NCBI GenBank assembly: GCA_030625965.1
Contig: DAOUPV010000018.1
Coordinates: 1 to 34,225 of the forward strand
Length of the DNA stretch: 34,225 nt
Direction: 5' to 3'
Origin: Clostridia bacterium
Lineage (GTDB): Bacteria; Bacillota; TC1; UBA5767
Shown: piece after piece, positions 3,512-21,630 of the stretch
Numbering within the stretch: position 1 is the first letter of the stretch
Layout: each line of letters opens with the position of its first letter
Notes under the pieces: generated by a model
What the model saw: the letters and a program-made list of their open reading frames with translations, nothing else
What the model was told of the DNA's origin: nothing
Databases searched by the model: none
Position numbers and translations under genes: made by a program

Positions 3512-4657
3512 ATGATAAACTTCAACAAGCCGCCCTATATTGGAAAAGAATTAGACTACATAAAACAGGTAGTGGAAAACAATCAGCAACTTTGTGGAGA
3601 TGGCCCATTTTCAATTAAATGTAATATGTGGTTTGAAAAAAGATTCAATACGCCAAAGTCTTTATTAACAACTTCCTGTACGCATGCTTTAGAAATGGCA
3701 GCAATTCTTGTGGATATAAATCCAGGCGATGAAGTCATTGCACCATCATATACTTTTGTTTCAACTGTGAATTCCTTTGTCATGAGAGGGGCGAAAATCG
3801 TTTTTGTTGACATAAGGCCTGATACAATGAACATTGATGAAAACCTTATTGAGGCAGCAATTACAAAAAAAACTAAAGCAATAATTCCTGTGCATTATGC
3901 AGGTGTATCTTGTGATATGGATAGGATCAAGGAGATAGCAAAGAAGTATAGCCTTTATGTGATCGAAGATGCAGCACATGGGGTTATGTCAACATATAAA
4001 GGTAAACCACTAGGAACTATAGGTGATTTAGGTTGCTATAGCTTTCATGAGACTAAGAACTATTCAATGGGTGAAGGTGGGGCAATATTAATCCAAAATA
4101 TAAAGTTTTTGGAACGTGCTGAAATAATAAGGGAAAAAGGGACAAATAGATCTCAATTTTTTAGAGGTTATGTTGATAAATACACGTGGGTAGATATTGG
4201 GAGTTCCTACATACCAAGTGAAATAAACGCTGCATATCTGTATGCTCAGCTAGAGGAAGCTAGCAAAATAAACAATGATCGCCTTAATATATGGAATACT
4301 TACTATAAGAGATTAAGAGATTTAGCACTAGAGGGATTCATAGAATTGCCTTATATACCTGAAGAGTGTAAACATAATGCCCATATGTTCTATATAAAAT
4401 GTAAAAATATTGAAGAACGTTCAAAGCTTATTAAGTACCTTAGTTATCATGGTATTATGGCGGTATTTCACTATGTCCCATTACATAGTTCCAGGGCCGG
4501 ACTTAAATATGGTAGATTCCATGGTGATGATACCTATACTACGGAGGAGAGCGAAAAGCTCTTAAGATTACCAATGTATTTTGGTTTGGAAGAGAAAAAG
4601 GTGAATCAGATAATAAAAAATGTAATTGAATTCTATCGAGGGGGAGAAAATTATTGA
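3512..4657 (+). CDS. wecE: dTDP-4-amino-4,6-dideoxygalactose transaminase (WecE/RffA type)
   Basis: A 381-residue PLP enzyme of the DegT/DnrJ/EryC1 sugar aminotransferase family. It would convert dTDP-4-keto-6-deoxyglucose to dTDP-4-amino-4,6-dideoxygalactose (TDP-Fuc4N) with glutamate. Resemblance to E. coli WecE is extensive: the N-terminus around Asn-Lys-Pro-Pro, the Ser-Cys-Thr near residue 55, Pro-Ser-Tyr-Thr-Phe-Val-Ser near residues 83-89, the Ile-Arg-Glu-Lys-Gly-Thr-Asn-Arg-Ser block, and Ser-Phe-His-Glu-Thr-Lys-Asn-Tyr near residue 180, whose lysine forms the PLP aldimine. Length also matches. The stop overlaps the TTG start of the next gene by four bases (TTGA), pointing to translational coupling with the transferase that would use the acetylated product. 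Confidence 0.92.
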   Translation: MINFNKPPYIGKELDYIKQVVENNQQLCGDGPFSIKCNMWFEKRFNTPKSLLTTSCTHALEMAAILVDINPGDEVIAPSYTFVSTVNSFVMRGAKIVFVDIRPDTMNIDENLIEAAITKKTKAIIPVHYAGVSCDMDRIKEIAKKYSLYVIEDAAHGVMSTYKGKPLGTIGDLGCYSFHETKNYSMGEGGAILIQNIKFLERAEIIREKGTNRSQFFRGYVDKYTWVDIGSSYIPSEINAAYLYAQLEEASKINNDRLNIWNTYYKRLRDLALEGFIELPYIPEECKHNAHMFYIKCKNIEERSKLIKYLSYHGIMAVFHYVPLHSSRAGLKYGRFHGDDTYTTEESEKLLRLPMYFGLEEKKVNQIIKNVIEFYRGGENY

Positions 4658-5718
4658 TATTGCATGTATTTAATAATCAAGAAAAGTTTTCAAAAGGTTA
4701 TTTTAAAATGCTGCATGATCATGGCTTTGATTTGAGTAAACATCGTTTATTTCATTATGGCGCCGAGAATGATTATTTTTCGTTATTGGGAATAGAGGCA
4801 ATATTCTCAAATTCATGGATTACCATATTGCCACACATAAAACTATTACAGTGGTTATATAGAGCTGATAAGATAATAGTCCATTCTTTAGCATCTCCAA
4901 TGGTATTACTATATTTATTAATTTTTCCGAAATTTCGCGACAAGGTAAATTGGGTAGTGTGGGGAAAGGATTTGTATTATTACAAATTACTAGTAAGACC
5001 GAACATTGCTCATCATATTTATGAGTTCATGAGGAAAAGAGTTTTTCCACGAATTCCTTTAATAATTACTGCTTTCAGGGAAGAGTACGATCTTGGTCGA
5101 CAGTGGTACAATTTTACAGGTGAAAATATTGAGTGTGCTTTATTGTATCCATATTCAGTTCGTCTAGATACTGATGATAGGGATGTATTAGAAAAGAAGA
5201 ATGGTAAACTTATATTATTGGTGGGGAACTCGTCAAGTTTGACAAATAATCATATAGATGCACTTCAGAAACTGAAAGTATTTGAGAATGATATAGAAAG
5301 GATTATTTGCCCATTATCATATGGAGGACAAAAGTCATATGTGAAGAAGGTATGTAAAACTGGTGAGAGATTATTCGGAGAAAAATTTATTGCGATGAAA
5401 GATTTCATGAGTGTGGAAGACTATTTTGGAATTATTGGGAATGTAGATATCGCAATATTTAATCACAATAGACAGGAAGGATTAAATAATATTTATTCTT
5501 TATTGAATCAAAAAAAGACAATTTATATGAATAGTACCATTTCTTCTTGGTCTTTCTTTATGCGGAACAATATACAAGTGAAGAATTTCTTAGATATTGA
5601 AAATGAATCTTTATGTAAATACGATGATAGGACCTTAGAGAATAATAGAATCGTATTGTGTGATTTAATTAATATTGGTGAAACATTGAAGATTTGGAAG
5701 AAAGTGTTAGAAGAATGA
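4654..5718 (+). CDS. WecF-like TDP-N-acetylfucosamine (Fuc4NAc) transferase, GT56 family
   Basis: A 354-residue protein that resembles enterobacterial WecF, which adds Fuc4NAc from TDP-Fuc4NAc to an undecaprenyl-linked sugar at the inner membrane face. Supporting blocks are Trp-Gly-Lys-Asp-Leu-Tyr at residues 103-108 (His-Ile-Trp-Gly-Ala-Asp-Leu-Tyr in WecF), Leu-Leu-Tyr-Pro at about 163-166, and Val-Gly-Asn-Ser at 190-193 with Asn-Asn-His at 198-200 (Ile-Leu-Val-Gly-Asn-Ser then Asn-Glu-His in WecF). The TTG at 4654 is chosen because it lies in the last codons of wecE behind a GGGGGAG ribosome binding site. Identity is by motif memory, but adjacency to WecE makes the assignment strong. Acceptor and final polymer are unknown. 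Confidence 0.82.
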   Translation: MILHVFNNQEKFSKGYFKMLHDHGFDLSKHRLFHYGAENDYFSLLGIEAIFSNSWITILPHIKLLQWLYRADKIIVHSLASPMVLLYLLIFPKFRDKVNWVVWGKDLYYYKLLVRPNIAHHIYEFMRKRVFPRIPLIITAFREEYDLGRQWYNFTGENIECALLYPYSVRLDTDDRDVLEKKNGKLILLVGNSSSLTNNHIDALQKLKVFENDIERIICPLSYGGQKSYVKKVCKTGERLFGEKFIAMKDFMSVEDYFGIIGNVDIAIFNHNRQEGLNNIYSLLNQKKTIYMNSTISSWSFFMRNNIQVKNFLDIENESLCKYDDRTLENNRIVLCDLINIGETLKIWKKVLEE

Positions 5719-9631: not shown

Positions 9632-10906
9632 TCAGATTGTGCTACTGGCCAGGTGTTTCTTGTAGATCTTTATAATTATTTTGGTGCCGATATTTTTTGT
9701 TGATTCCACATGATAGGTGAAGGCATCTTCAAAATGCAACTTTAACCGTTCGATGGTATTAGCAAGGCCATAATGGGTATCGGTGCTGAGATGCTTGTCA
9801 TTGGTAAGCGGTGACTTCTTTATATTGGTGAAGAAGCGCTCCATCTGCTCGTCATCCATGCCGGCGCCATTGTCCTCGATGGTGATGGTGTAGTAGTTGT
9901 CTGATTCCCGTCCCAAGATCTGAACGATGCCTTCCCGGTCCAGCGGTTCCAGGCCATGGATAATTGAATTTTCCACGAAAATCTGAAGCGAGAAGAAGGG
10001 AAGCATCAGGTTTTTGAGTGAGTCATCGATGTCGATGAGGAATTTTACCCGTTCACCGAAGCGGAAGTTCTGCAGGTAGAGGTACTTTTCTATGTAGTTC
10101 AGTTCCTGCTCCAAGGTTACCAGATTGGTCTTATTGTGTAGGCTGTAGCGTAACATCTTGGTGAAGGTTTCCAGAATGTTCTGGGCACTGTCATATTCTT
10201 CCAACTCCAGTAATCGGATGATACTGGACAGGATGTTGAACATGAAGTGGGGATCCACCTGGTTCTGCATGGCACTCAGCTTGGCGAAGCGCAAACTGTG
10301 CTCCAATACCGTACGTTTCTTTTCCTGCTGGAAGAGGATGTCCTGTTTCTGAAGGAGCTCTTTTTCCAAAGCTTCTTTGACGTTCTTGTCTACGATGTAG
10401 TTGGCCAGCATAAAGAGGCTTTTGGCCGCCGCAATGATCCTCTGTTTGGGGATCATCATGGTCTCCTGGCGCATCTCCTTGAAACGATCCGTATTGAACC
10501 AGGGCATATTGTAGTCTTTTTCACCAATGCTTGGAAAATCTCCATCTTCAAAATCGCTACATCGTACCTGCCCGGCCATTACAGTACCTACAAACTTGTC
10601 ATCGATGATGATCGGTATGATGATATCGATCAGACCCGCATGACATTGGAATATGTAGGGCTTTTTTTGTTTCAGGGCTCTTAATGCCGCCAGCCGGTTG
10701 GAGGCGAAGCAGCAGTTGAGGCCACCTTCGTGTCCGTGGATTGCATTGCAAAAAGAACAGAAATTGGAGCCTTCTCCAAGGTGTGTGCCTTGGGCGTCGG
10801 TGAAGACCACACCCATTCCGGTCGCCAGTGCAAAGGATTCCTCGATTTCCTTAAGTGTTTCCTTGTCAATATTATGTATAGCAGTTACGAGTTTCGTAAG
10901 AGGCAT
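9632..10906 (-). CDS. Soluble PocR-domain sensor histidine kinase (LytS/YehU-type)
   Basis: A 424-residue kinase without membrane segments. Residues 12-175 are a PocR sensory domain with clustered cysteines (Cys50, Cys53, Cys65, Cys66, Cys88) and the Gly-Leu-Ile-Asp-Ile-Ile-Ile-Pro block. This fold is known from the propanediol/cobalamin regulator PocR and is thought to bind small metabolites. A coiled linker (176-205) leads to the His_kinase domain: His220 in Gln-Val-Asp-Pro-His-Phe-Met-Phe-Asn, an N-box in Phe-Val-Glu-Asn-Ser, and a G-box in Glu-Asp-Asn-Gly-Ala-Gly-Met-Asp. It is one base behind the response regulator and its ribosome binding site (AAGGAGGG) encodes that protein's last residues, indicating coupling. 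It likely senses a cytoplasmic ligand and controls the divergent operon from 12200. Confidence 0.93.
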   Translation of the reverse strand: MPLTKLVTAIHNIDKETLKEIEESFALATGMGVVFTDAQGTHLGEGSNFCSFCNAIHGHEGGLNCCFASNRLAALRALKQKKPYIFQCHAGLIDIIIPIIIDDKFVGTVMAGQVRCSDFEDGDFPSIGEKDYNMPWFNTDRFKEMRQETMMIPKQRIIAAAKSLFMLANYIVDKNVKEALEKELLQKQDILFQQEKKRTVLEHSLRFAKLSAMQNQVDPHFMFNILSSIIRLLELEEYDSAQNILETFTKMLRYSLHNKTNLVTLEQELNYIEKYLYLQNFRFGERVKFLIDIDDSLKNLMLPFFSLQIFVENSIIHGLEPLDREGIVQILGRESDNYYTITIEDNGAGMDDEQMERFFTNIKKSPLTNDKHLSTDTHYGLANTIERLKLHFEDAFTYHVESTKNIGTKIIIKIYKKHLASSTI

Positions 10907-10907
10907 A

Positions 10908-11978
10908 TTAACCCTCCTTGCAATTCGATCGGTATGCAGAAGGTGTCACTTGTCGGAAGGCTTTGAATGTCCGATTGAAGTGGCTGGTGTCGTGATACCC
11001 GACTTCGTTGGCGATTTCGCTGACCTTCAGGTTGGAATTTTCCAACAAATGGACGGCTTGGTTAATTCTCAACTCGTTCAGGAAATGAGGGAAAGACATG
11101 TTGGTCTCTTTACTGATACAGCGAGATAGGTGCGATTCGCTGAAGTGGAACTGATGGCTGAGCGTTTTCAATGTGATGTCTTCTTGGAAATTATTCTGTA
11201 TGAATTTCACAATATTCTTCGTCTGATAAATGGTTGATGAATCATGCAACAACAATTTTTCTGTTATGGCCTGTTCGCTTTCCACCAGGGCGTTCCTAAG
11301 TGCGTGGATGCTGGTGGCATTCTCCAAGCGGTCGATGGTATTGTTTTTGAATTGGTTGACATCTTCGGTGTCGAAACCGATAAGAACCATGGTTCTGCTG
11401 ATCTCGCTGATGAAATCTTTGAGGCAATGCTTGATGACAGGCGTGCCTTTGGATGATACCAGAAGTGAACGCATGAAATCATTAAAGCTACGTTTGAAAA
11501 GTTTCACATCGTAGTGCTGCATGGCCCCAATGAGAGATTTCTCTTCCATAAGGGGATAATCTGAGAGGTTGTATTGATTGTCGCAGGATTTTGTCATCTG
11601 AGTTTGTTGTCTGGATTTCTGATAGAGATTTTCAATAATCTCTGTGAGCATATAGTCTTTTGTAGGTTTGATGATGTATTCGTCTGCACCCAGGCGTAAG
11701 GCTTTCTGGGCCAGATCGAATTCGGCATAAGCTGTGTTGATGATGACCTGTATGTTCTTGTCGATGGCTTTGATTTGTTCTGTGGCTTGTAATCCGCCCA
11801 TGGTGGGCATCTTAATGTCCAATATGGCTACATCGACAGGGTTTTGGCGGGCATATTCAACAGCATCCTTTCCATTGTTTGCAGTGTGGACAACCTGAAA
11901 ATGATCGTTTTTGGATAAGATCTTGTTAAGGTATTTCATCTCCAGCATTTCGTCTTCCGCAATCAGAATGCGAATCAT
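10908..11978 (-). CDS. YesN-type response regulator with AraC/XylS DNA-binding domain
   Basis: A 356-residue regulator. The receiver domain (1-120) has acidic residues Glu8-Asp9-Glu10, phosphoacceptor Asp54 in Ile-Leu-Asp-Ile-Lys-Met-Pro, Thr82 and Lys104. A middle region (about 140-245) has no motif I recognise. Residues 255-352 form two helix-turn-helix units of the AraC family, ending in the signature Glu-Val-Gly-Tyr-His-Asp-Thr-Ser-His-Phe-Asn-Arg-Thr-Phe-Lys. An AAAGGGGGAA ribosome binding site precedes ATG 11978. It partners the PocR kinase downstream. The divergent position relative to the SDR/GcvP-like operon, with repeated motifs in the shared intergenic region, makes that operon the likely target. 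Confidence 0.95.
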   Translation of the reverse strand: MIRILIAEDEMLEMKYLNKILSKNDHFQVVHTANNGKDAVEYARQNPVDVAILDIKMPTMGGLQATEQIKAIDKNIQVIINTAYAEFDLAQKALRLGADEYIIKPTKDYMLTEIIENLYQKSRQQTQMTKSCDNQYNLSDYPLMEEKSLIGAMQHYDVKLFKRSFNDFMRSLLVSSKGTPVIKHCLKDFISEISRTMVLIGFDTEDVNQFKNNTIDRLENATSIHALRNALVESEQAITEKLLLHDSSTIYQTKNIVKFIQNNFQEDITLKTLSHQFHFSESHLSRCISKETNMSFPHFLNELRINQAVHLLENSNLKVSEIANEVGYHDTSHFNRTFKAFRQVTPSAYRSNCKEG

Positions 11979-12071: not shown

Positions 12072-12109
12072 AAAAAGTACGAGGCTGAATTACCAGGTTT
12101 TGGAAAGTT

Positions 12110-12124
12110 ATATCCGTAGGATAT
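12110..12124. promoter_or_regulatory. Palindrome ATATCC-GTA-GGATAT, candidate operator upstream of the SDR gene
   Basis: Perfect six-base inverted arms flank a three-base spacer, 75 bases ahead of the SDR start. Its core TCCGTAGGAT recurs exactly at 13099-13108 upstream of the GcvP-like operon, and both are preceded by TTGGAA. The shared block suggests a common regulator-binding site, most simply for the adjacent YesN-type regulator. Confidence 0.45.
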
Positions 12125-12199
12125 GGACTGGATTCCTAGAAGTCAGGTATTGGGTAAAGGGAGCGGCGTATCGGTTGGTTTAGGGTAAAGGAGGAAGCT

Positions 12200-13009
12200 A
12201 TGATCATGCACAGGAAGAAGAAACTTGATGGCCGCATTGCACTTGTCACGGGAGCAGCCAAAGGAAACGGTTTAGGTGGAGCTCTTGGATTGGCCCGGCA
12301 TGGAGCCAAAGTCTATCTTACGGATCTCGACGAGGCGGTTTACGAACGTGCTGAGGAGATGAGAAAAAGAGGGATTGAGGCTGAAGGGGTATTGATGGAT
12401 GTGTGTGATGTAGACTCCGTGAAGGAAACGATCAGTAAAATCGTACGCACGGAAGGCCGAATCGACATTCTGTTCAACAATGCTGGAGTCATCAAGGTGA
12501 AACCTTTTATGGAGATGAGTGATGATGAACGGGATTTTCATTTCGACGTGAATGTGAAAGGCGTTTGGAACTGTGCACGGGCCGTCTATCCACACATGGT
12601 GGAGAAGGACTACGGCAAGATCATTAATATGTCGTCTGTCACTGGAACTAGCGTAGTCGATGAAGGGGAGACAGCCTACGCTACGACTAAGGCAGCTATA
12701 TGGGGATTCACCAAAGCCCTGGCCTATGAGGGCGCCCAATATGGCATCAATGTGAATGCCATATGCCCAGGCTACATACTGACTCCTATGGCCAGACAGA
12801 TTGCCGTGGAATCCAATCCTGACGATCCCCAGGCAGCACTTGATGGTATTGCTGTGGCAGTACCGCTTGGTCGTCTTGGGACCATGGAGGAGATAGGAGA
12901 TCTGGTTGCATTCCTGGCCAGCGATGAATCGGCTTACCTTGTTGGTACCCAAATTGTGATTGACGGCGGAAGCACTTTGCCTGAAACCTTCAGTGCAGTG
13001 GGATTTTGA
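12200..13009 (+). CDS. Short-chain dehydrogenase/reductase, UcpA-like
   Basis: A 269-residue classical SDR. The nucleotide motif is Thr17-Gly-Ala-Ala-Lys-Gly-Asn-Gly24, with Asn where Ile is usual. Asp42 ends the second strand, which suggests NAD(H). Asn-Asn-Ala-Gly is at 93-96, and the catalytic set is Ser146, Tyr160 and Lys164. The Ser-Ser-Val-Thr-Gly block, Gly-Glu-Thr-Ala-Tyr-Ala-x-Thr-Lys-Ala-Ala, the Ile-Cys-Pro-Gly-Tyr stretch and the C-terminal Asp-Gly-Gly-Ser-Thr-Leu-Pro-Glu-Thr strongly resemble E. coli UcpA, an SDR of uncertain physiological substrate. GGAGG precedes ATG 12200; ATG 12206 is also possible. It is the first gene divergent from the PocR/YesN regulators. A 231-base gap with a repeat of the candidate operator separates it from the GcvP-like genes. 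Confidence 0.88.
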   Translation: MIMHRKKKLDGRIALVTGAAKGNGLGGALGLARHGAKVYLTDLDEAVYERAEEMRKRGIEAEGVLMDVCDVDSVKETISKIVRTEGRIDILFNNAGVIKVKPFMEMSDDERDFHFDVNVKGVWNCARAVYPHMVEKDYGKIINMSSVTGTSVVDEGETAYATTKAAIWGFTKALAYEGAQYGINVNAICPGYILTPMARQIAVESNPDDPQAALDGIAVAVPLGRLGTMEEIGDLVAFLASDESAYLVGTQIVIDGGSTLPETFSAVGF

Positions 13010-13240
13010 CGGATATATTCAAGCAAAGAACATGAATATGCAACAAATATAAACGTCATCGGTGCATGACAAGAATTGACAATTTATGCTTGGAAGTGTC
13101 CGTAGGATTTTACATTGTTATGGTGAATCAATAGACGTAGGACTTAAAGAATCAAATTATGATGTTTGTGCCGAATTGATTGGGGGGATGAGCGACTAGG
13201 CGCAATGCAATGAAAAACTAATAAATTGGAGGGAAACTTA
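13010..13240. promoter_or_regulatory. Leader/regulatory region of the GcvP-like operon
   Basis: It contains TTGACA at about 13077 without a convincing -10 at 17 bases, an exact copy of TCCGTAGGAT (13099-13108) shared with the SDR upstream region, and a relative GACGTAGGAC (13134-13143). No intrinsic terminator follows the SDR gene, so read-through is possible. I looked for glycine riboswitch core elements and did not find them. GGAGGG just ahead of 13241 is the ribosome binding site. Confidence 0.45.
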
Positions 13241-14629
13241 ATGAGCGGTAAAGGTAATATTGTATATCCTTATATTCCTAATTCAGTACCTGATGTAAGA
13301 CGGGCGATGTTGGACGAGTTGGGTTTTGAAAGCGAAGAGGACATCTATAAAGAGATACCCGATCGACTGAGATTTAAAGGTGAGATGAAATTGCCAGCCC
13401 CTATCCATTCTGAGGCCAGGTTGCAAAGACATGTAGAGAAGATTCTCGCGAAGAATGAAAACGTCAAAGACAATATCAGTTTCTTAGGCGGAGGTACTTG
13501 GAATCACTACGTACCAGCACTCTGCGATACCATTGGTGGACGTGATGAGATTTTAACTTCTTATGTCGGTGAAGCCTTCACCGACCATGGAAAGTTCCAA
13601 ATATTATTTGAGAGCACAAGTATGCTGGGCGACCTAACCGGTTTCGAAGCATGCAATACTCCGACCTATGACTGGCCGAATGCTGTTGCTATCACTTCAA
13701 GAATGGCAGCCAGAACTACCGGAAGAAAAGAAATTCTGGTATCTGAAAATATCGGTCCAGAAAGAAAAGTTATCAATGAAAACTACTGCAAACCAGACCT
13801 TAAAATAGTTGAAGTGAAATATGACTTTGAAAACCGTTGCCTGGATCTAGCGGATCTCAAAAGCAAGGTTTCTGATAATACTGCGTTGATATACTTCGAA
13901 AGCCCGTCATATCTGGGATTCCTGGAAACTCAAGGCGCAGAGATTGTTGAAATCGCGCACGCCAAAGGTGCGCTGGTAGCCGTCGGTGTAGATCCCACTT
14001 CTTTGGGTATCTTGGAAGCCCCTGGCGACTACGGTGCTGACTACGCTGTCGGCGAATTGCAGCCTCTTGGTGTCCACATGCAATGCGGCGGTGGCCTAGG
14101 TGGCTTCATCGCAACCAAAGACGAAGAGAAATTCGTAGCTGAATATCCTTCCTTGCTGTTTGGTGTACTGCCAACTGTAAAAGAGGGTGAATATGGATTC
14201 GGTCAGGTTGCTTTTGAAAGAACTTCCTATGGTTCCCGTGAAAAAGGTAAAGATTTCATTGGTACTTGTGCAGCATTGCACGGTATGATTGCAGCCGTAT
14301 ACTTAGCACTTATGGGTCCCGGCGGTATGAAGGATCTCGGATCTACCATCATGCAGCGCATGGCTTATGCAAAAGCTGAACTGGCTAAGGTTCCCGGCGT
14401 GAAACTATATGACGGTTACAACTTCAAGGAATTCGTAGTCAACTTTGATGATTTCGGAAAATCCGTTGCAGAAGTTAATAAGGCACTCCTCAAGAAGAAA
14501 ATCTTCGGCGGTATCGATTTGACGAAGAGCTTCCCGGAGCTTGGCAATTCCGCTTTGTATTGCGTTACCGAAATGTTGTCGAAAGAAGATATCGATGATT
14601 TGGTAGTTGCATTGAACGAAATGTGCTAA
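13241..14629 (+). CDS. Diverged GcvPA-like subunit (glycine dehydrogenase subunit 1 paralogue)
   Basis: A 462-residue protein with the GcvPA architecture: Tyr-Ile-Pro-Asn at 11-14, Ile-Pro-x-x-x-Arg-Phe-Lys-Gly around 39-47, and length close to the roughly 450 expected. In two-subunit P-proteins this subunit helps form the interface active site. Here most hallmark motifs are changed. Phe-Leu-Gly-Ala-Gly-x-Tyr-x-His is Phe-Leu-Gly-Gly-Gly-Thr-Trp-Asn-His (81-89). The Tyr-Gln-Pro-Glu-x-Ser-Gln-Gly loop is replaced at 108-117. Tyr-Asp-Gly-Ala is Tyr-Asp-Trp-Pro (143-146). The conserved Arg-Arg-Glu-Lys-Ala-Thr-Ser-Asn-Ile-Cys-Thr block is replaced by a Ser-Arg-Glu-Lys-Gly-Lys-Asp-Phe stretch (332-339). 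ATG 13241 follows GGAGGG. It should pair with the gene 37 bases downstream. A changed substrate is inferred. Confidence 0.82.
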   Translation: MSGKGNIVYPYIPNSVPDVRRAMLDELGFESEEDIYKEIPDRLRFKGEMKLPAPIHSEARLQRHVEKILAKNENVKDNISFLGGGTWNHYVPALCDTIGGRDEILTSYVGEAFTDHGKFQILFESTSMLGDLTGFEACNTPTYDWPNAVAITSRMAARTTGRKEILVSENIGPERKVINENYCKPDLKIVEVKYDFENRCLDLADLKSKVSDNTALIYFESPSYLGFLETQGAEIVEIAHAKGALVAVGVDPTSLGILEAPGDYGADYAVGELQPLGVHMQCGGGLGGFIATKDEEKFVAEYPSLLFGVLPTVKEGEYGFGQVAFERTSYGSREKGKDFIGTCAALHGMIAAVYLALMGPGGMKDLGSTIMQRMAYAKAELAKVPGVKLYDGYNFKEFVVNFDDFGKSVAEVNKALLKKKIFGGIDLTKSFPELGNSALYCVTEMLSKEDIDDLVVALNEMC

Positions 14630-14666
14630 TTGGGTTAAAAAAATCAAAATGGAGGTTGAAGTATAG

Positions 14667-16250
14667 ATGAGTAAACCATATGTAAGAACGAATTTCCACG
14701 AAGCTCGCTGGGATGAACCGATGATATATGAGCTTTCTACTCCAGGCACCAGAGGTATATTAGTTCCTGAAGTCGAGGATGAAATCGTTGATGCTGTTGG
14801 CGACGTAGCAGCAGCCTTGCCGGACAGCCTTAAAAGAAGCGCACCGCTTCTGTTGCCGGAAGTTGACCAAAAACACGTTTTGGCACACTACATTCACCTG
14901 ACTCAGGAAACTATGGGCTCCAACTTAAGTAATGACTTAAGTGAAGGAACCTGTACAATGAAATACAATCCACGTTTAAGTGAAGCGATGTCTATGAATC
15001 CGGACTTTGCAGAGATTCATCCGGAACAGGATGACAGCACTGTTCAAGGCACTTTGGAAATATTCTACAAGTTCGAACAGATCATGAAGGAAGTTTCCGG
15101 AATGGATCGATTTAGTTTCCAACCGGGTGGTGGTAACCATGCCGTTTACTGTGCATCATCCGTAATGCGCGCTTACCACGCTTCCAGGAAAGATGACAAG
15201 AGAGATACCATCATCACCACTATCTTCTCACACCCCTGTGATGCAGCGGCTCCCTGTACAGCCGGTTATAACGTTGTGACCCTGTACCCGGATGAGCAAG
15301 GTATCCCTGATTACGAAGGCTTGAAAAAAGCTGTAGCTGAAATTGGCGATCACTTGGCTGGTTTCTTCATGACCAACCCTGAGGACATCGGTATTTACAA
15401 TCCGAACATCGACAAGTTTGTAGAACTGGTTCACTCTGTTGGCGGTCTGTGCTACTATGACCAAGCCAATGCCAACGCCTTCTTGGGCGTGGTTAGAGCC
15501 AGAGAAGCAGGCGTCGACATGTGTCATTTCAATGTACACAAGACTTTCGGTACCCCGCATGGTGGTGAAGGCCCAGCAAACGGCGCTTTCGGTTGCCGTG
15601 AATTCCTGAGTAAATTCTTACCGGTTCCGACCATTGAATTTGACGGAGAAAAATATTTCAGAGACTATGACAGACCCGACAGCTTCGGTAAAGTCAGAGG
15701 GTACATCGGTACTGCCGGCGTAATCCTGAGAGCTTACAGCTGGACCATGATGCATGGTGCAGAAGGTCTTAGAATGTGTGCAAATATCTCTGTACTGAAC
15801 AACAACTATCTGGAGAAAATGCTTCTATCCATCAAAGGATTGGGCGAAGCATTCCTCGGAAATGGTATCACCAGACAAGAGCAATGTCGTTACACCTGGG
15901 AAGAGCTCAAGAACGACACTGGTGTCGGCACCGACGACATCAACAAACGAGTTGGTGACTTCGGTATTCCTTGGTACTGGGCTTCCCATCATCCATGGGT
16001 CATTCCCGAGCCTATGACTCTGGAGCCTTGCGAGACATATAGCAAGTGTGATCTGGAAGAATACTATCTGAGCTTGAAACTGGTAGCAGAAGAAGCATAC
16101 GATAATCCTGAAGTTGTACTTTCGGCGCCACACAGACAAGCATCTCATGATCTTGCCAATCCGGAAGATCTGGATGATCCAGAAAAATGGGCAACCACTT
16201 GGAGAGCCTTCTTGAGAAAACATGGCGACAAGTATCTTAAAGTGAAATAG
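14667..16250 (+). CDS. Diverged GcvPB-like PLP subunit (glycine dehydrogenase subunit 2 paralogue)
   Basis: A 527-residue PLP fold-type I protein, about 40 longer than usual GcvPB through a charged C-terminal tail (from residue 495). Retained: Cys-Thr-Met-Lys-Tyr-Asn-Pro (96-102), His189 aligned with the PLP-stacking histidine, Asp265 of the Tyr-Asp-x-Ala-Asn motif, and Lys292 in His-Lys-Thr, the Schiff-base lysine. Changed: Ala-His-Gly-Glu is Asn-His-Ala-Val (157-160), His-Gly-Thr-Asn-Pro-Ala-Ser is His-Pro-Cys-Asp-Ala-Ala-Ala (189-195), the glycine loop Pro-His-Gly-Gly-Gly-Gly-Pro-Gly is Pro-His-Gly-Gly-Glu-Gly-Pro-Ala (297-304), and an aromatic-rich Trp-Tyr-Trp stretch stands at 436-438. 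PLP chemistry should persist; glycine specificity and H-protein use are doubtful. Confidence 0.83.
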   Translation: MSKPYVRTNFHEARWDEPMIYELSTPGTRGILVPEVEDEIVDAVGDVAAALPDSLKRSAPLLLPEVDQKHVLAHYIHLTQETMGSNLSNDLSEGTCTMKYNPRLSEAMSMNPDFAEIHPEQDDSTVQGTLEIFYKFEQIMKEVSGMDRFSFQPGGGNHAVYCASSVMRAYHASRKDDKRDTIITTIFSHPCDAAAPCTAGYNVVTLYPDEQGIPDYEGLKKAVAEIGDHLAGFFMTNPEDIGIYNPNIDKFVELVHSVGGLCYYDQANANAFLGVVRAREAGVDMCHFNVHKTFGTPHGGEGPANGAFGCREFLSKFLPVPTIEFDGEKYFRDYDRPDSFGKVRGYIGTAGVILRAYSWTMMHGAEGLRMCANISVLNNNYLEKMLLSIKGLGEAFLGNGITRQEQCRYTWEELKNDTGVGTDDINKRVGDFGIPWYWASHHPWVIPEPMTLEPCETYSKCDLEEYYLSLKLVAEEAYDNPEVVLSAPHRQASHDLANPEDLDDPEKWATTWRAFLRKHGDKYLKVK

Positions 16251-16264
16251 GCGCAAGCCTTTAA

Positions 16265-16301
16265 CCCGGGGAGCAACGGGAAATCCTGATTGCTCTTCGG
16301 G
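16265..16301 (+). other. Strong intercistronic hairpin without T-run
   Basis: Twelve-base arms (16265-16276 and 16290-16301, two G-U pairs) close a 13-base loop between the GcvPB-like and kinase-like genes. No T-run follows, so it is not a standard terminator. It could be an RNA-processing or 3'-end stabilising element that raises the level of the GcvP-like messages relative to downstream genes. Confidence 0.55.
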
Positions 16302-16327
16302 CTATCTCTGAAGAAGGATGTGACATT

Positions 16328-17452
16328 TTGGCTAAAAAAATCGGAGTTATAGTAAATCCAGTAGCTGGAATAGGCGGAAGAGTCGGCCTCAAGGGGTCTG
16401 ACGGGGAAGCAATACTGGCCAAAGCATTGGCATTGGGTGCAAAACCGGAGTGCCCGAACAAGGCAGTTGTGGCAATCAGCCAATTCAAAGATTTTCAGGA
16501 CGAACCCTTGGAGATCTATACCTATCCCAAAGAAATGGGAGAGGATGAAATGCGTGCTGCCGGTCTTACCCCCATAGTAATCGGGGAAATTGATTCTGGA
16601 CATACTACCCCGGACGATACCGTCAGGGCTGCCAAGGACCTGCTAGCGCTTGGTGTGGAACTTATTTTATTTGCGGGTGGAGATGGTACTGCCAGGAACG
16701 TACTGGATGCAGTGGGTGAAGAAATCGCTGTGTTGGGCGTACCAGGTGGATGCAAAATTCATTCCGCAGTATATGCCATCAACCCGAAGACCGCAGGAAA
16801 ACTGGTATTGGAATTTTTACTAGGTAAAGTACAGGACTTGAAAGAGTCTGAAGTCATGGATATCGATGAGGATGCTTTCCGAGAAGGCGTGCTACGTGCC
16901 AGACTATATGGCTATATGAGAGTGCCCAATGAGAAGAAAATGGTGCAGAACCTGAAAAGTGGCCGAGGTTATGGTGAAGAAGCCGCCCTCGACTTGGTTG
17001 CACGATACATTGCCTTCAACTTGGAAGAAGATGTTCTCTATGTCATGGGTCCTGGATCGACTGTCCGCGGCGTCATGAACAAGTTGGAACTTCCAAATAC
17101 CTTGTTGGGTGTTGATTTGGTATACAACAACAAGGTGATTGCCAACGATGTGAACGAAAAAGGGATCCTGGATGTCTTGGCGCAGTATGACAAGGCTCGG
17201 ATCATCATAACCGTAATTGGGGGACAAGGCTATTTATTCGGCAGAGGAAACCAACAACTCAGTCCGGCCGTTATTCGTGAAGTAGGGCTGGACAATATCA
17301 AGGTTATAGCTACAAAGAATAAAATGTTCTCATTGTTCGCTCAACCACTTTTAGTTGATACAGGTGACGAAAGTCTAAATGAAGAATTGAGCGGATATGC
17401 AAGAGTGACTGTTGGTTACGGCGAGTCTGTGATGTTCAAAGTCAATGCTTGA
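16328..17452 (+). CDS. ATP-NAD kinase-like protein (COG3199 type)
   Basis: A 374-residue protein of the NAD kinase/diacylglycerol kinase superfamily. It has Ile-Val-Asn-Pro-Val-Ala-Gly-Ile-Gly-Gly at 8-17 and the phosphate-binding Gly-Gly-Asp-Gly-Thr-Ala-Arg at 117-123. Length and N-terminus match the long NAD-kinase-like family that also includes proteins from acetoin clusters (AcoX). It would make NADP from NAD, or phosphorylate a related small molecule. The start is TTG 16328, behind AGAAGGA. It follows the two GcvP-like genes, after the hairpin, and precedes the permease by 26 bases, so it is probably cotranscribed. Why a dedicated NAD kinase-like gene sits here is unclear; the flanking SDRs look NAD(H)-dependent from their acidic residue after the second strand. 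Confidence 0.83.
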   Translation: MAKKIGVIVNPVAGIGGRVGLKGSDGEAILAKALALGAKPECPNKAVVAISQFKDFQDEPLEIYTYPKEMGEDEMRAAGLTPIVIGEIDSGHTTPDDTVRAAKDLLALGVELILFAGGDGTARNVLDAVGEEIAVLGVPGGCKIHSAVYAINPKTAGKLVLEFLLGKVQDLKESEVMDIDEDAFREGVLRARLYGYMRVPNEKKMVQNLKSGRGYGEEAALDLVARYIAFNLEEDVLYVMGPGSTVRGVMNKLELPNTLLGVDLVYNNKVIANDVNEKGILDVLAQYDKARIIITVIGGQGYLFGRGNQQLSPAVIREVGLDNIKVIATKNKMFSLFAQPLLVDTGDESLNEELSGYARVTVGYGESVMFKVNA

Positions 17453-17478
17453 TGTGACCAAAGAAGGAGGTTTAACGT

Positions 17479-18930
17479 ATGTCAGAAAATCTTGGAATCA
17501 GTCCAGATACTGGATCACGTATGGAAGAATCCGGCAAACTTAAGAAGAGTTTAAGACTGCTTTATGTTTATGCATTGGCGACAGGCGCAATTCTTACGTT
17601 TATCGGATACTGGGATGGTATTTTCTTGACTGGTGCAGGTCCTGCAACGTTTTTATCATTTTTCCTAATGACTTTAATGGTTTTACCAGTTGCGTTCGTT
17701 TACTGTGAACTGACTGCACTGTTCCCCAACACAGGCGCTGAGTTGGTATTTAATACCATCGGCTTGAATAAATACTGGGGATTCTTCTCCGCATGGGCAA
17801 TCATGGCAGCTTGGATCGCCGTACCGCCCGCAGCTGTAATGGGTATCTTGGAGTGGATCAACTATGCATTCCGTTTGGATATGTCGTTCACCACGATCGT
17901 TACCATCGCAGCTGTCTTATTAGTACTTTATACTGCACTTAGCTTGAGTGATATCAACCTGTCAGGTCAGATTCAGACAGTCATGCTATTCGCAGCTTTA
18001 TTTGGTGTTACCTTGACCGGAATTATCTTCTTGTTCTCCGGACATTGGGATATCGCTAACTTTACTCCTTTCTTCCAATCGGCACATGCCGGTGGTGGAG
18101 CTGCAGGAACTGGTGGGATACCCGGTTGGATTATCGGTACCGCGCTCATCGTTACACCGTACTTCGGTTTCGAAACAGTTCCCCAGTTGGTTGAGGAAGG
18201 TGACTTCCCGATTACTGATACAAGTAAAGCCATCTTGGGTTCTGTAATTACATGTGGCGCACTGTATGTATTCTTCTTCTTTGCTCTTGCAGGGATGGGC
18301 GACTGGACTACTCTTACTGCGGCAGGTACCAATGTTCCGTTCGTAGCCATTAAAGTAATCGAAAATACATTCGGTTGGTATGGATATGCCTTGTTCTTTG
18401 GGGTAACAGCCGTATTGTTCACTATCAGTACCTGTATCCTGGGTTTCTGGATTTCCACAGTACGTCTGATGTTCGCTATGGGCAGACAGGGCTTCTTGCC
18501 TAAAATCTTCTCCAAAGTTAATAAGCATCAGCAACCAATCGTTCCTAACCTGGTAGTATTGGGACTTTCTCTGGGCGCCATCTTCATCATGAATGCTGGT
18601 ACCTATCTGGAAGACTTCTTCACAGTTATGGCACTTTCCGTGGCCATCGCTTACACCATCACCATGTACTCATCGACCAGAATTGCTATCAATCATCCCG
18701 AGTGGAATCGACCATATATTCTTAAAGGCGGCCAAGGATTCAGATGGTTTGCATTCTTCATCGCTATCGGCATCGCCATCCTGTGTGCTCTCGGTCTTCC
18801 GACTGGTGCCTGGATCAGCTGGGGCTGGTACATGGGTATCGGCGTAGTGCTGATTGCCTTCATGGCAGCTTTCCGTTGGAAGAAAGATCCTGTATGGATG
18901 GTTACTCCTGACGGCGAAAAAGAGTTTTAA
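17479..18930 (+). CDS. APC-superfamily amino-acid permease/antiporter
   Basis: A 483-residue protein with about twelve hydrophobic segments, beginning after a 30-residue polar N-terminus. The first segment contains Ala-Thr-Gly-Ala-Ile-Leu-Thr-Phe, matching the unwound helix 1 glycine motif of APC transporters, and the Tyr-Phe-Gly-Phe-Glu-Thr stretch in the middle is the helix 6 equivalent. It has a strong AGGAGG ribosome binding site and is the last gene before a terminator. Family members import amino acids or exchange an amino acid for its decarboxylation product. Linkage with a PLP enzyme related to a decarboxylase makes it the probable substrate carrier, possibly an antiporter. The transported compound cannot be told from the sequence. 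Confidence 0.9.
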   Translation: MSENLGISPDTGSRMEESGKLKKSLRLLYVYALATGAILTFIGYWDGIFLTGAGPATFLSFFLMTLMVLPVAFVYCELTALFPNTGAELVFNTIGLNKYWGFFSAWAIMAAWIAVPPAAVMGILEWINYAFRLDMSFTTIVTIAAVLLVLYTALSLSDINLSGQIQTVMLFAALFGVTLTGIIFLFSGHWDIANFTPFFQSAHAGGGAAGTGGIPGWIIGTALIVTPYFGFETVPQLVEEGDFPITDTSKAILGSVITCGALYVFFFFALAGMGDWTTLTAAGTNVPFVAIKVIENTFGWYGYALFFGVTAVLFTISTCILGFWISTVRLMFAMGRQGFLPKIFSKVNKHQQPIVPNLVVLGLSLGAIFIMNAGTYLEDFFTVMALSVAIAYTITMYSSTRIAINHPEWNRPYILKGGQGFRWFAFFIAIGIAILCALGLPTGAWISWGWYMGIGVVLIAFMAAFRWKKDPVWMVTPDGEKEF

Positions 18931-18954: not shown

Positions 18955-18990
18955 GCAGATCTGCTCTTCGGGGCAGATCTGCTTTTCTTT
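18955..18990 (+). terminator. Intrinsic terminator after the permease gene
   Basis: Two copies of GCAGATCTGC (18955-18964 and 18973-18982) pair across an eight-base loop (TCTTCGGG) and are followed by TTTTCTTT. It separates the GcvP-like operon from the MFS-led operon. Confidence 0.92.
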
Positions 18991-19002: not shown

Positions 19003-20226
19003 GTGAATATGAGGAATACAAGCCATCGCTACCTGATTGTCACGGTCATGTTCCTAGGCCTGATGATGCAGAACATCCTGTGGTTTGCACCGGCTCCGTT
19101 CCTGTCGCTCATCGTGGATGACCTGGGGATGAACATGATGCAAGCTGGACTGAGCATGTCCGTAATCGGACTCATAACAGCTATTTCAGGTATGTTTCTG
19201 GGTGAGCTTTTTATAAGAATCGGCATTAAGCACACGTTTAGTATCGCACTCGTGCTGATGGCACTGGGATCATTTATGAATCTGGTGGTCACTAAGTTCT
19301 GGATACTTTTATCAGCAAGGATTCTAATTGGAATAGGATTCGGATTTTGCCTGCCGGTCGCCGGCACCGTAATCATGACTTACTTTTCTGAAGGGGAGAG
19401 ACCTTATCTTAACACGATCAACTCCCTGTTACCCTATTTTGCAACAGCCATGACATTCATCTTAACCATACCGGTCTTCCAATTCTTTGGGTCTTCCTGG
19501 CGAATCACCTTGGCTCTGCCAGGTGTGTTTTCCCTGGGGGCACTCATACTCTGGCAAAAATACTACCAGGAAAAAGAGAGATCGGTTGTCCGGGTGGAAG
19601 AAAAGCTGGACAGAAATATCCTTAAGGAAATAATCGGTAACAAACAGGTGATATTGCTCACGATTGCGGATGCCTGCGATATGTGGAGTTTTCAATTCGT
19701 TGCCACCTATTTGGCTACCTTCTTCTATACAGAGGCCATGATGACACTGGCCAGATCCTCATACCTGATGTCGATATTCCCCATCGCGGGAATCATTGCT
19801 GGGTTTAGCTGTGGTATCGCCATGGGCAGGATCGGGCTCAGAAAACCCTTTACCTGGCCCCTGCATATTATGATCTTTGTGGGCACGACCATGGCCTTGT
19901 ATCTTGACGGAACTGGAAGAATGATCGGCATATTCCTATCCGGATTCGGCAACGCTGGTTGGGCGCCTGCTCTTTTCACCATGCCCATGGAATTTGAGAA
20001 TATGACACCGGAAAAGGTGGGTGCAGTGTATGCACTCATGCTTTCCGCTGGCTTCTTTGCCGCCTTCGTTTCACCCTTTCTGGGTGGCTATCTGACTGAA
20101 TTCATGACTCTTAGAACTGTAATTTTTTTGTTTTCAATGCCATCGCTGTTGGCCGCATTTGTTACTTGGAAGATGAAGGAAACTGGCTCGGCAAAGCGTA
20201 CCAAGCGCGATAAGTTAATAATTTAG
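19003..20226 (+). CDS. Major facilitator superfamily transporter
   Basis: About 407 residues with twelve hydrophobic segments in two halves, separated by a charged central loop (near residues 185-205). A charged Arg-Ile-Gly-Ile-Lys loop follows the second segment in place of the classical motif A. The shape resembles CynX/NimT-like or anion/metabolite MFS importers, but I cannot name the substrate. The start is uncertain: GTG 19003 and ATG 19009 are both in frame and the AGGTGA at 19001-19006 is tight for either. It lies 13 bases after the T-run of a terminator and 13 bases before the YwlG-like gene, so it heads a three-gene unit. It may import the substrate, or export a product, of the same pathway. 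Confidence 0.85.
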   Translation: MNMRNTSHRYLIVTVMFLGLMMQNILWFAPAPFLSLIVDDLGMNMMQAGLSMSVIGLITAISGMFLGELFIRIGIKHTFSIALVLMALGSFMNLVVTKFWILLSARILIGIGFGFCLPVAGTVIMTYFSEGERPYLNTINSLLPYFATAMTFILTIPVFQFFGSSWRITLALPGVFSLGALILWQKYYQEKERSVVRVEEKLDRNILKEIIGNKQVILLTIADACDMWSFQFVATYLATFFYTEAMMTLARSSYLMSIFPIAGIIAGFSCGIAMGRIGLRKPFTWPLHIMIFVGTTMALYLDGTGRMIGIFLSGFGNAGWAPALFTMPMEFENMTPEKVGAVYALMLSAGFFAAFVSPFLGGYLTEFMTLRTVIFLFSMPSLLAAFVTWKMKETGSAKRTKRDKLII

Positions 20227-20239
20227 TGAGGAGATTCGA

Positions 20240-20803
20240 ATGATGGAAATGAACTATGATTTGGAAAGAAGCATCGTACAAGATGCCAGAGAGGCAGTAC
20301 GGGAGCTGATTGAGGCCAGTGCACTTTCACCAGGAAATCTGCTGGTCATCGGTTGCAGCACCAGTGAGATTGCCGGCTCAGTCATCGGGAAAAATTCAGC
20401 CCCGCAGCTGGGAGAACTGATCATTGGGGCCATACTGCCACTAATCAAGGACCATGGCCTGTACCTGGCAACTCAGTGTTGCGAACACCTGAACCGGGCT
20501 TTGGTCGTCGATGCGGACTATGCCGAGCGAAATTGCCTGGATCGTGTGAGGGTGGTGCCTCACCCCAAGGCGGGAGGTTCATTCAGCAGTGCCTATTACC
20601 GATATCTGGAAAATCCAGCTATGGTTGAGGCCATTATGGCGGACGCCGGAATCGATATTGGAGATACATTTATTGGGATGCACCTGAAACGGGTGGCCAT
20701 ACCGGTGCGACTGTCTATTAAAAGCATAGGACTGGCCCATGTTACTGCGGCTAGGACGCGTCCCAAACTGATCGGGGGGGAACGAGCCAAGTATGATATT
20801 TGA
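20240..20803 (+). CDS. UPF0340/TIGR01440 family protein (YwlG-like)
   Basis: A 187-residue protein of the YwlG family. Diagnostic stretches are Leu-Leu-Val-Ile-Gly-Cys-Ser-Thr-Ser-Glu near residues 33-42, Gln-Cys-Cys-Glu-His-Leu-Asn-Arg-Ala near 78-86, Pro-His-Pro-Lys-Ala-Gly-Gly-Ser near 106-113, and Met-His-Leu-Lys-Arg-Val-Ala near 147-153. Biochemical function is unknown. In Bacillus the gene stands next to glyA (serine hydroxymethyltransferase), so a link to glycine/serine chemistry is plausible, which is notable beside GcvP-like genes. GAGGAG precedes ATG 20240; alternative ATGs are at 20243 and 20249. It is in one operon with the MFS gene and the following SDR. Confidence 0.88.
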   Translation: MMEMNYDLERSIVQDAREAVRELIEASALSPGNLLVIGCSTSEIAGSVIGKNSAPQLGELIIGAILPLIKDHGLYLATQCCEHLNRALVVDADYAERNCLDRVRVVPHPKAGGSFSSAYYRYLENPAMVEAIMADAGIDIGDTFIGMHLKRVAIPVRLSIKSIGLAHVTAARTRPKLIGGERAKYDI

Positions 20804-20853: not shown

Positions 20854-21630
20854 ATGGAGAGACTGATTGGTAAGGTAGCTGTTATTTCAGGCGGGGCCTT
20901 GGGTATCGGTGAGGCGGACTGCCTGCTTTTTGCGAGAGAGGGCGCTAAAGTTGTAATCGGGGATATTAATGTGGAAGCAGGAGAGGCGCTGGCCGGAAAG
21001 ATCAAGGATGAGGGTTTCGAGGCCAGCTTCTGCTTCTTGGATGTTTCCAAGGAGGCAGCATGGAAAAAACTCTTTGCTTATACGATTGAAAAGTATGGTA
21101 AAGTGAACGTTTTGGTGAATAATGCTGGTGTATCCTTGGGAAAAGATGTCGAAACCACGACACTCGAAGAGTGGAACTGGCTGATGGGCATCAATTCTAC
21201 AGGCGTTTTCCTTGGAACCAAATATGGAATCATCAACATGAAGAACAACGGTGAGGACTGCTCCATCGTGAATCGATCTTCCATTGACGGACAGGTAGGT
21301 GAAGCGGGACTGGCAGCCTATTGTGCCTCCAAAGGATCGGTAACAATCCTAACCAAGTCCGCCGCCTTGGCATGCGGAGAGAAAGGGTATAAGATCCGGG
21401 TGAATTCGGTTCATCCCGGTTATGTACATACCTCACTTACTGAGAAAGAAGCGGCCGATTCAGGCCTTACCAAGGATGAGTATTTTGCCAAGGTCAGCAA
21501 GATGCATCCCATCGGGTATATCGGCAGGCCTATGGATATCGCCTATGCGGATCTATACCTGGCCTCAGATGAATCAATCTTCAGTACTGGGTCAGAGATC
21601 ACTGCCGATGGTGGCTGGACTGCACAATAA
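20854..21630 (+). CDS. Short-chain dehydrogenase/reductase (second SDR)
   Basis: A 258-residue classical SDR with Ser12-Gly-Gly-Ala-Leu-Gly-Ile-Gly19, Asp37 at the end of the second strand (NAD(H) preference), Asn-Asn-Ala-Gly at 89-92, and catalytic Ser143, Tyr156 and Lys160. It resembles NAD-dependent secondary alcohol dehydrogenases of the 3-alpha-hydroxysteroid/cyclohexanol type, but the substrate is not evident. GAGAGGAGAG precedes ATG 20854. It ends the MFS-YwlG-SDR unit and is followed by a strong terminator. Together with the UcpA-like SDR it brackets the GcvP-like block, suggesting that the pathway handles a hydroxy or carbonyl intermediate. Confidence 0.9.
   Translation: MERLIGKVAVISGGALGIGEADCLLFAREGAKVVIGDINVEAGEALAGKIKDEGFEASFCFLDVSKEAAWKKLFAYTIEKYGKVNVLVNNAGVSLGKDVETTTLEEWNWLMGINSTGVFLGTKYGIINMKNNGEDCSIVNRSSIDGQVGEAGLAAYCASKGSVTILTKSAALACGEKGYKIRVNSVHPGYVHTSLTEKEAADSGLTKDEYFAKVSKMHPIGYIGRPMDIAYADLYLASDESIFSTGSEITADGGWTAQ

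Follow-up and report, generated by a model that had tools for sequence, protein, structure and literature searches.

The GcvPA-like and GcvPB-like proteins encoded at positions 13226–14629 and 14667–16250 of the window (the whole stretch of 34,225 nucleotides analysed here) form a pair, hereafter PA' and PB', that is distinct from the P-protein of the glycine cleavage system (GCS). We tentatively propose that PA'PB' is a PLP-dependent decarboxylase of glycine, or of a close relative of glycine, which would act independently of an H-protein and yield a small amine. That PA'PB' differs from this P-protein is far more certain than the assignment itself, for which we infer the enzyme's own H-protein independence, glycine (or a relative) as the substrate and an amine as the product.

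Gene set and conservation

The five-gene cluster reported in the preliminary description is real, and all its open reading frames are open. The first gene (12200–13009, + strand) encodes SDR1, a UcpA-like short-chain dehydrogenase (NCBIfam UcpA, 377.9 bits for a cut-off of 356) with 56% identity to UcpA of E. coli. It is followed, on the same strand, by the genes of PA', the GcvPA-like subunit (13226–14629; NF001696, 435.1 bits for a cut-off of 364), of PB', the GcvPB-like catalytic subunit (14667–16250; NF003346, 490.5 bits for a cut-off of 441), of NADK', a protein of the NAD-kinase/diacylglycerol-kinase fold with a GGDGT motif (16328–17452; Pfam NAD_kinase and NAD_kinase_C above cut-off), and of an APC-superfamily permease (17479–18930; PF13520, 116 bits). 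Judging from the GGAGG that precedes it, the ATG at 13241 is the more likely start of PA'. In SDR1, the Asp after beta2 (LTDLD) suggests a preference for NAD. The best solved relative of SDR1 in a PDB search is 6qhe, titled Alcohol Dehydrogenase; as this single match cannot give specificity, an assignment of SDR1 to an ephedrine-like pathway was abandoned.

Two features of the cluster differ from what had been described. The interval 12200–18930 holds one SDR and not several, the second, SDR2, being encoded at 20854–21630 (+); it resembles (R)-specific alcohol dehydrogenase (NF052562, 292 bits, below the cut-off of 400). The permease, which had been considered to close the operon, is indeed followed by a terminator-like hairpin (18955–18982, +; 12 pairs, 7 of them G-C, with a T-rich tail), but the same strand goes on to encode an MFS transporter (19003–20226, +; PF07690), a DUF436/TIGR01440 protein (20240–20803, +; PF04260, 242 bits) and SDR2. 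All three belong to the set by synteny, the MFS gene being conserved in loci L161, L008, L012, L159 and L160. As the complete order, from SDR1 to SDR2 and including the divergent regulatory genes, is the same in L161, which comes from a single-contig genome of the same genus, the permease is not clearly the end of the gene set.

The divergent genes encode a PocR-sensor histidine kinase, which is a probable regulator (9632–10906, −; PF10114 and PF06580), and its partner, a response regulator with an AraC-type DNA-binding domain (10908–11978, −; PF00072 and PF12833). A PocR-sensor kinase gene is also found next to PA' in L161, L008, L014 and L036. Upstream of SDR1, the element TTTGGAAAGTTATATCCGTAGGATATGGA (12099–12127, +), with TCCGTAGGA as its core, is a possible regulator site; a second copy of the TCCGTAGGA element lies upstream of PA' (13085–13113, +). 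TCCGTAGGA occurs nowhere else in the window, and the related AGGAAGTGTCCATAGGAG precedes PA' in L161. A longer gapped pattern around TCCGTAGGA is no more frequent than expected by chance. Elsewhere in the window (3512–5718), a gene for a WecE-type sugar aminotransferase adjoins a TDP-Fuc4NAc transferase-like gene, a pair of enterobacterial-common-antigen-type genes in a genome of the Bacillota.

With regard to conservation, a point raised in the preliminary description, the PA'-PB'-NADK core recurs across the Bacillota and in other phyla, which is far beyond chance. The loci compared comprise 35 from a scan of genome contigs and further ones from genome searches. In an even sample of Bacillota genomes, PB' is present at E 1e-150 in 24 of 398 (about 6%). 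Sedimentibacter saalensis DSM 13558 and Hespellia stercorisuis DSM 15480 are among the carriers. In 45 of 54 loci, PB' and an NADK' gene are no more than 5 kb apart, and four of the nine loci without this proximity are near contig ends. NADK-PA'-PB' units, annotated gcvPA/gcvPB, are also carried on plasmids of Rhodococcus, Gemmobacter, Antarctobacter, Sphingomonas, Paracoccus and Roseicitreum; the Rhodococcus order, SDR-APC-SDR-NADK-PA'-PB', is the set of the window rearranged. A haloarchaeal plasmid has PA'-PB', with the NADK homologue located elsewhere. Literature searches on GcvPA/GcvPB without GcvH, P-proteins with ATP-NAD kinases, AcoX with NAD kinases and ephedrine-type SDR clusters retrieved no description of this gene set.

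Six genomes (G017, G031, G009, G011, G022 and G023) contain two or three PA'PB' copies each, with differing neighbours that include CoA-transferase, M20 peptidase, racemase and EutH genes, which suggests several substrate specificities. PdxS adjoins three PA'PB' copies, and this fits PA'PB' being a PLP user.

The GGDGT motif of NADK' is invariant. No PDB match was obtained for the NADK' sequence at E 0.01. The AlphaFold model (pLDDT 88) has an N-terminal part that resembles both DAGK and NADK at Z 9–11; in VIA-align, NADK structures reach Z 8–11 over part of the model, and DAGK, NADK and unrelated ligand-binding folds all fall within about one Z unit; whole-chain Foldseek matches are weak (TM about 0.3). 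The fold search on this model does not settle the substrate of NADK'. On a plasmid of Peptoclostridium acidaminophilum (L169:9992–12068), the gene of an NADK' relative overlaps that of a PLP enzyme of the class I/II aminotransferase fold, with no PA'PB' nearby, so that a pairing with PLP enzymes may be a more general trait of this kinase family.

A P-protein-like family with changed pocket and contact residues

The host genome contains a separate and complete GCS, of which gcvT, gcvPA and gcvPB are clustered on contig C40; its only gcvH is on the same contig, away from this cluster. As had been noted previously, neither GcvH nor GcvT is encoded in the window, and the search for a dedicated H-protein elsewhere in the genome yielded none for PA'PB'. 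PA' and PB' share 32% and 35% identity with the host's own GcvPA and GcvPB, respectively. PB' matches the Thermus protein (1wyt_B, E 7.7e-72), and both subunits pass the curated equivalog cut-offs for GcvPA and GcvPB, which do not separate the PA'PB' family from classical GcvP. The separation is obtained in a maximum-likelihood tree, where a single 100/100 branch splits 61 rows of the new family from 19 classical GcvPB rows; no grouping of the former with the latter is seen among these rows. The pair is thus distinct from the P-protein of its own host cell.

In PB', K292, D265 and H189 are invariant in all 60 family members; based on homology to 1wyt, they are the PLP lysine (in an HKTF context), the Asp and the stacking His, respectively. 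In contrast, several positions that are invariant in classical GcvPB are altered together in the family: TNPNT becomes TNPED, YDGAN becomes YDQAN, HGTNP becomes HPCDA, HE becomes EQ near residue 405, and a V is replaced by R408. In PA', the TPYQPE motif is lost, with VGxAxxDHG in its place, and the classical REQHIRR is replaced by RTSYxSR. According to the alignment (via K754), the Arg of REQHIRR is the equivalent of Arg373 in human GLDC, for which a published docking model places a salt bridge with the H-protein (PMC7259800). This position is an Arg in 33 of 33 classical sequences and mostly a Ser in the PA' family. In the plasmid homologues, the PLP residues are likewise conserved, as are D240, E405 and R408 of PB' and D343 and G346 of PA'. 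The PLP machinery is therefore kept, whereas the pocket residues and the predicted H-protein contact are uniformly changed.

Glycine-side and amine-side contexts and the proposed reaction

Of 48 loci scanned, seven (L012, L015, L034, L142, L146, L159 and L160) have an RF00504 glycine riboswitch immediately before PA'; none is found in the window, nor before PA' in the sampled plasmids and most other loci. The last aptamer of five of these loci (L015, L034, L146, L159 and L160) overlaps at its 3' end with the start of a terminator-like hairpin, and this is the layout of glycine ON switches, i.e. of the gcvT riboswitches. Two of the riboswitch units, L142 (in genome G096) and L015 (in G008), stand in genomes without GcvH, GcvT or glycine reductase, and in L012 a glycine riboswitch accompanies the full SDR/APC/MFS/DUF436 set. 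In the place of the riboswitch, the window lineage has its PocR/AraC two-component system; with this system and two SDRs, its exact substrate may differ.

Other glycine genes are found close to the units. GCS genes share the stretch with PA'PB' in L012, L159, L160, L028 and L143, a second gcvH lies beside PA'PB' in L159 and L160, and the units of L113 and L146 have grdX/trxB/grdE genes as neighbours; in L038 and L148, an lpd-like gene is the only GCS-related gene of the stretch. Two further observations were made on these loci. One aptamer upstream of PA' in L159 (9990–10310) seems to be interrupted after GGGAGAGACCTTTTTTATA, to resume as GGCGCCGAAGGAGC about 250 bases further on, as if a small element had inserted there. 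T-box leaders are present near the end of the PA'PB' set (L012:18364–18574 and L160:604–388), close to pdxS; that of L160 also adjoins the second gcvH.

Amine metabolism is the other recurrent context. G096 encodes a pyrrolysine-type MtmB (692 bits, one in-frame TAG) beside a corrinoid protein, and pyrrolysine-type MtmB is also encoded three times in G120, which is of the riboswitch type, and once in G027. Strong matches of this type occur in only 3 of the 41 carriers examined, a count made among carriers alone. In L155, PA'-PB'-NADK is followed by a pyrrolysine MtbB, a corrinoid protein, an NhaC-type antiporter and an MttB-family protein. Gemmobacter exhibits a primary-amine oxidase downstream of the unit, and Vagococcus has EutH beside one PA'PB' copy (V. 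elongatus) and a GAF-kinase/ANTAR pair beside another.

The host genome (G000) itself contains fourteen MtmB-family matches without an in-frame TAG, which are of the non-pyrrolysine type and include some contig-end fragments (examples are C103:2994–4337, C135:2391–3734, C27:1127–2464 and C21:3090–4430); the same-genus genome G039 contains two. In Methanococcoides, the use of tetramethylammonium and choline requires a non-pyrrolysine MtmB homologue (PMC13044021). By analogy, the host is possibly specialised in methylated amines.

Both the glycine-side regulation and the amine-side neighbours would follow from a decarboxylation by PA'PB' of glycine or, in other copies, of related small amino acids. 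PA' and PB' would form an alpha/beta PLP enzyme that has diverged from the GCS P-protein and no longer depends on the lipoyl H-protein. It would convert glycine, or a closely related small amino acid, into CO2 and a small amine (methylamine in the case of glycine), with protonation of the quinonoid taking the place of the attack on lipoamide, and the permease would import the substrate or export the amine. Purified P-protein alone forms methylamine slowly. We know of no organism with such a route from glycine to methylamine and carbon dioxide. Five points count against this decarboxylase. The two SDRs and the PocR regulator of the window are not accounted for by glycine decarboxylation; the riboswitch is missing from the window and from most loci; GcvT and GcvH are common among carriers, which is also predicted by a product link or an H-protein link; strong pyrrolysine-type MtmB is confined to the 3 of 41 carriers given above; and the MtbB beside L155 would imply an N-methylated substrate, an unusual one for a PLP enzyme.

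The SDRs are better explained if the unit makes glycine instead of consuming it. An SDR would oxidise a beta-hydroxy amino acid or an amino alcohol, PA'PB' would cleave the C-C bond beside the amino carbon, by a PLP-dependent retro-Claisen or retro-aldol step, and the glycine would pass to the GCS or to glycine reductase. SDRs do form part of the gene set in Rhodococcus, as in the window lineage, and an AMP-binding ligase and an M20 deacylase in Rhodococcus suggest a carboxylic acid co-product; the full SDR set of L012 is under a glycine riboswitch, and the neighbouring GCS operons and grd genes would offer outlets. Nevertheless, many copies have no SDR, including the riboswitch-controlled L142, L159 and L160, glycine would have no fermentative outlet in G096, G008 and G013, which contain neither an intact GCS nor glycine reductase (Grd), and induction by glycine fits consumption better than production. 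We consider glycine formation rather unlikely.

Dependence on the H-protein and comparison with known systems

The NCBIfam scores would be satisfied by a second, ordinary glycine dehydrogenase, for which PA'PB' borrows an H-protein encoded elsewhere and feeds the normal GCS. Most carriers have GcvH and GcvT, GcvT being found in 23 of 24 carriers versus 236 of 374 non-carriers (Fisher p 0.0006, with genomes counted as unrelated), and the second gcvH of L159 and L160 points in the same direction. The presence of both partners in the same cell is true of the window genome but not of all carriers. G096 (99% complete, 1% contamination) carries in L142 a complete PA'-PB'-APC-NADK operon; no GcvT was found in this genome, and the search for GcvH gave only a biotinyl-type match of 24 bits. 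Neither GcvH nor GcvT was found in G008 and G009, while in G013 GcvH was not found and GcvT is reduced to a fragment of 25 positions; as absences from these three metagenome-assembled genomes are weak when taken alone, the argument rests mainly on G096. Because the complete L142 operon stands in a genome without GcvH and GcvT, the PA'PB' unit seems, from gene content, able to work without an H-protein. With the predicted H-contact Arg and TPYQPE lost throughout, and with members of a distinct clade coexisting with a classical P-protein within one cell, an ordinary glycine dehydrogenase is improbable. The preliminary description had regarded consistent co-occurrence with gcvT and gcvH as an argument against its decarboxylase. 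Such co-occurrence is observed in part, at least five relatives having GCS genes and PA'PB' in one stretch, but given G096 it points to a shared glycine metabolism and not to H-protein dependence.

With regard to the permease, the GadB-GadC-type arrangement put forward earlier is not supported, although the decarboxylase part of that proposal fits the relatives' glycine riboswitches and amine-side neighbours. At E 0.001, the permease gave ten NCBIfam matches, all below cut-off and none to a GadC or other exchanger model, the transporter type varies among relatives (three APC types, MFS, NhaC and EutH), and no observation indicates exchange. A decarboxylase/antiporter pair for acid resistance or energy conservation is very improbable: a decarboxylase-like enzyme and an APC permease do share one cluster in several lineages, and glycine/methylamine exchange would be the natural form of such a pair, but some PA'PB' copies have no APC gene, the relatives' control responds to glycine and not to acid, and SDR and NADK partners are foreign to such systems.

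Annotation pipelines name the PA'PB' genes glycine dehydrogenase subunits, and the metabolic models of many Clostridia and of some aerobes may credit them with a glycine cleavage that is not performed. Extended to the whole widespread family annotated GcvPA/GcvPB, our decarboxylase proposal is bolder and calls for more reserve: the family would be a lipoyl-free, methylamine-making glycine decarboxylase whose NADK-like partner has a new function, other small amino acids being the substrates of related copies. If glycine is indeed converted into methylamine, anaerobes would have a third route for glycine besides the GCS and glycine reductase, methylamine would have a biological origin in this reaction, glycine fermentation would be coupled directly to methylamine-using methyltransferases, and an orphan NAD-kinase-like family would gain a new partner role. 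The riboswitch-controlled operon in a genome without an H-protein makes this reading directly testable with one purified enzyme.

Four known systems can be compared with the gene set. As in GadB-GadC and similar pairs, a PLP enzyme adjoins an APC permease, but PA'PB' is unrelated to that decarboxylase family, the permease of the window matches no exchanger model, there is no sign of acid control, and the cluster adds SDR, NADK-like, MFS and DUF436 genes. From general knowledge, NADK' shares with AcoX-type proteins the NAD_kinase domains, the annotation as ATP-NAD kinase family and the location in a catabolic operon of a cofactor-dependent decarboxylating enzyme, whereas it is tied to PA'PB' and not to acetoin dehydrogenase. 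The riboswitch operons of the relatives exhibit the tandem aptamers, the overlapping terminator and the downstream P-protein-like gene of gcvT-type operons; in contrast, they control PA'PB' units, two of them in genomes without GcvH and GcvT, and the window itself has no riboswitch. Finally, PA'PB' and the two-subunit P-protein of the GCS (GcvPA/GcvPB; Thermus 1wyt) have in common two adjacent subunits, the fold family and the PLP lysine, Asp and stacking His. PA'PB' differs in its separate clade, in its changed pocket and predicted H-contact residues, in its occurrence in genomes without GcvH and GcvT, and in its partner, which is an NADK-like protein instead of GcvH and GcvT.
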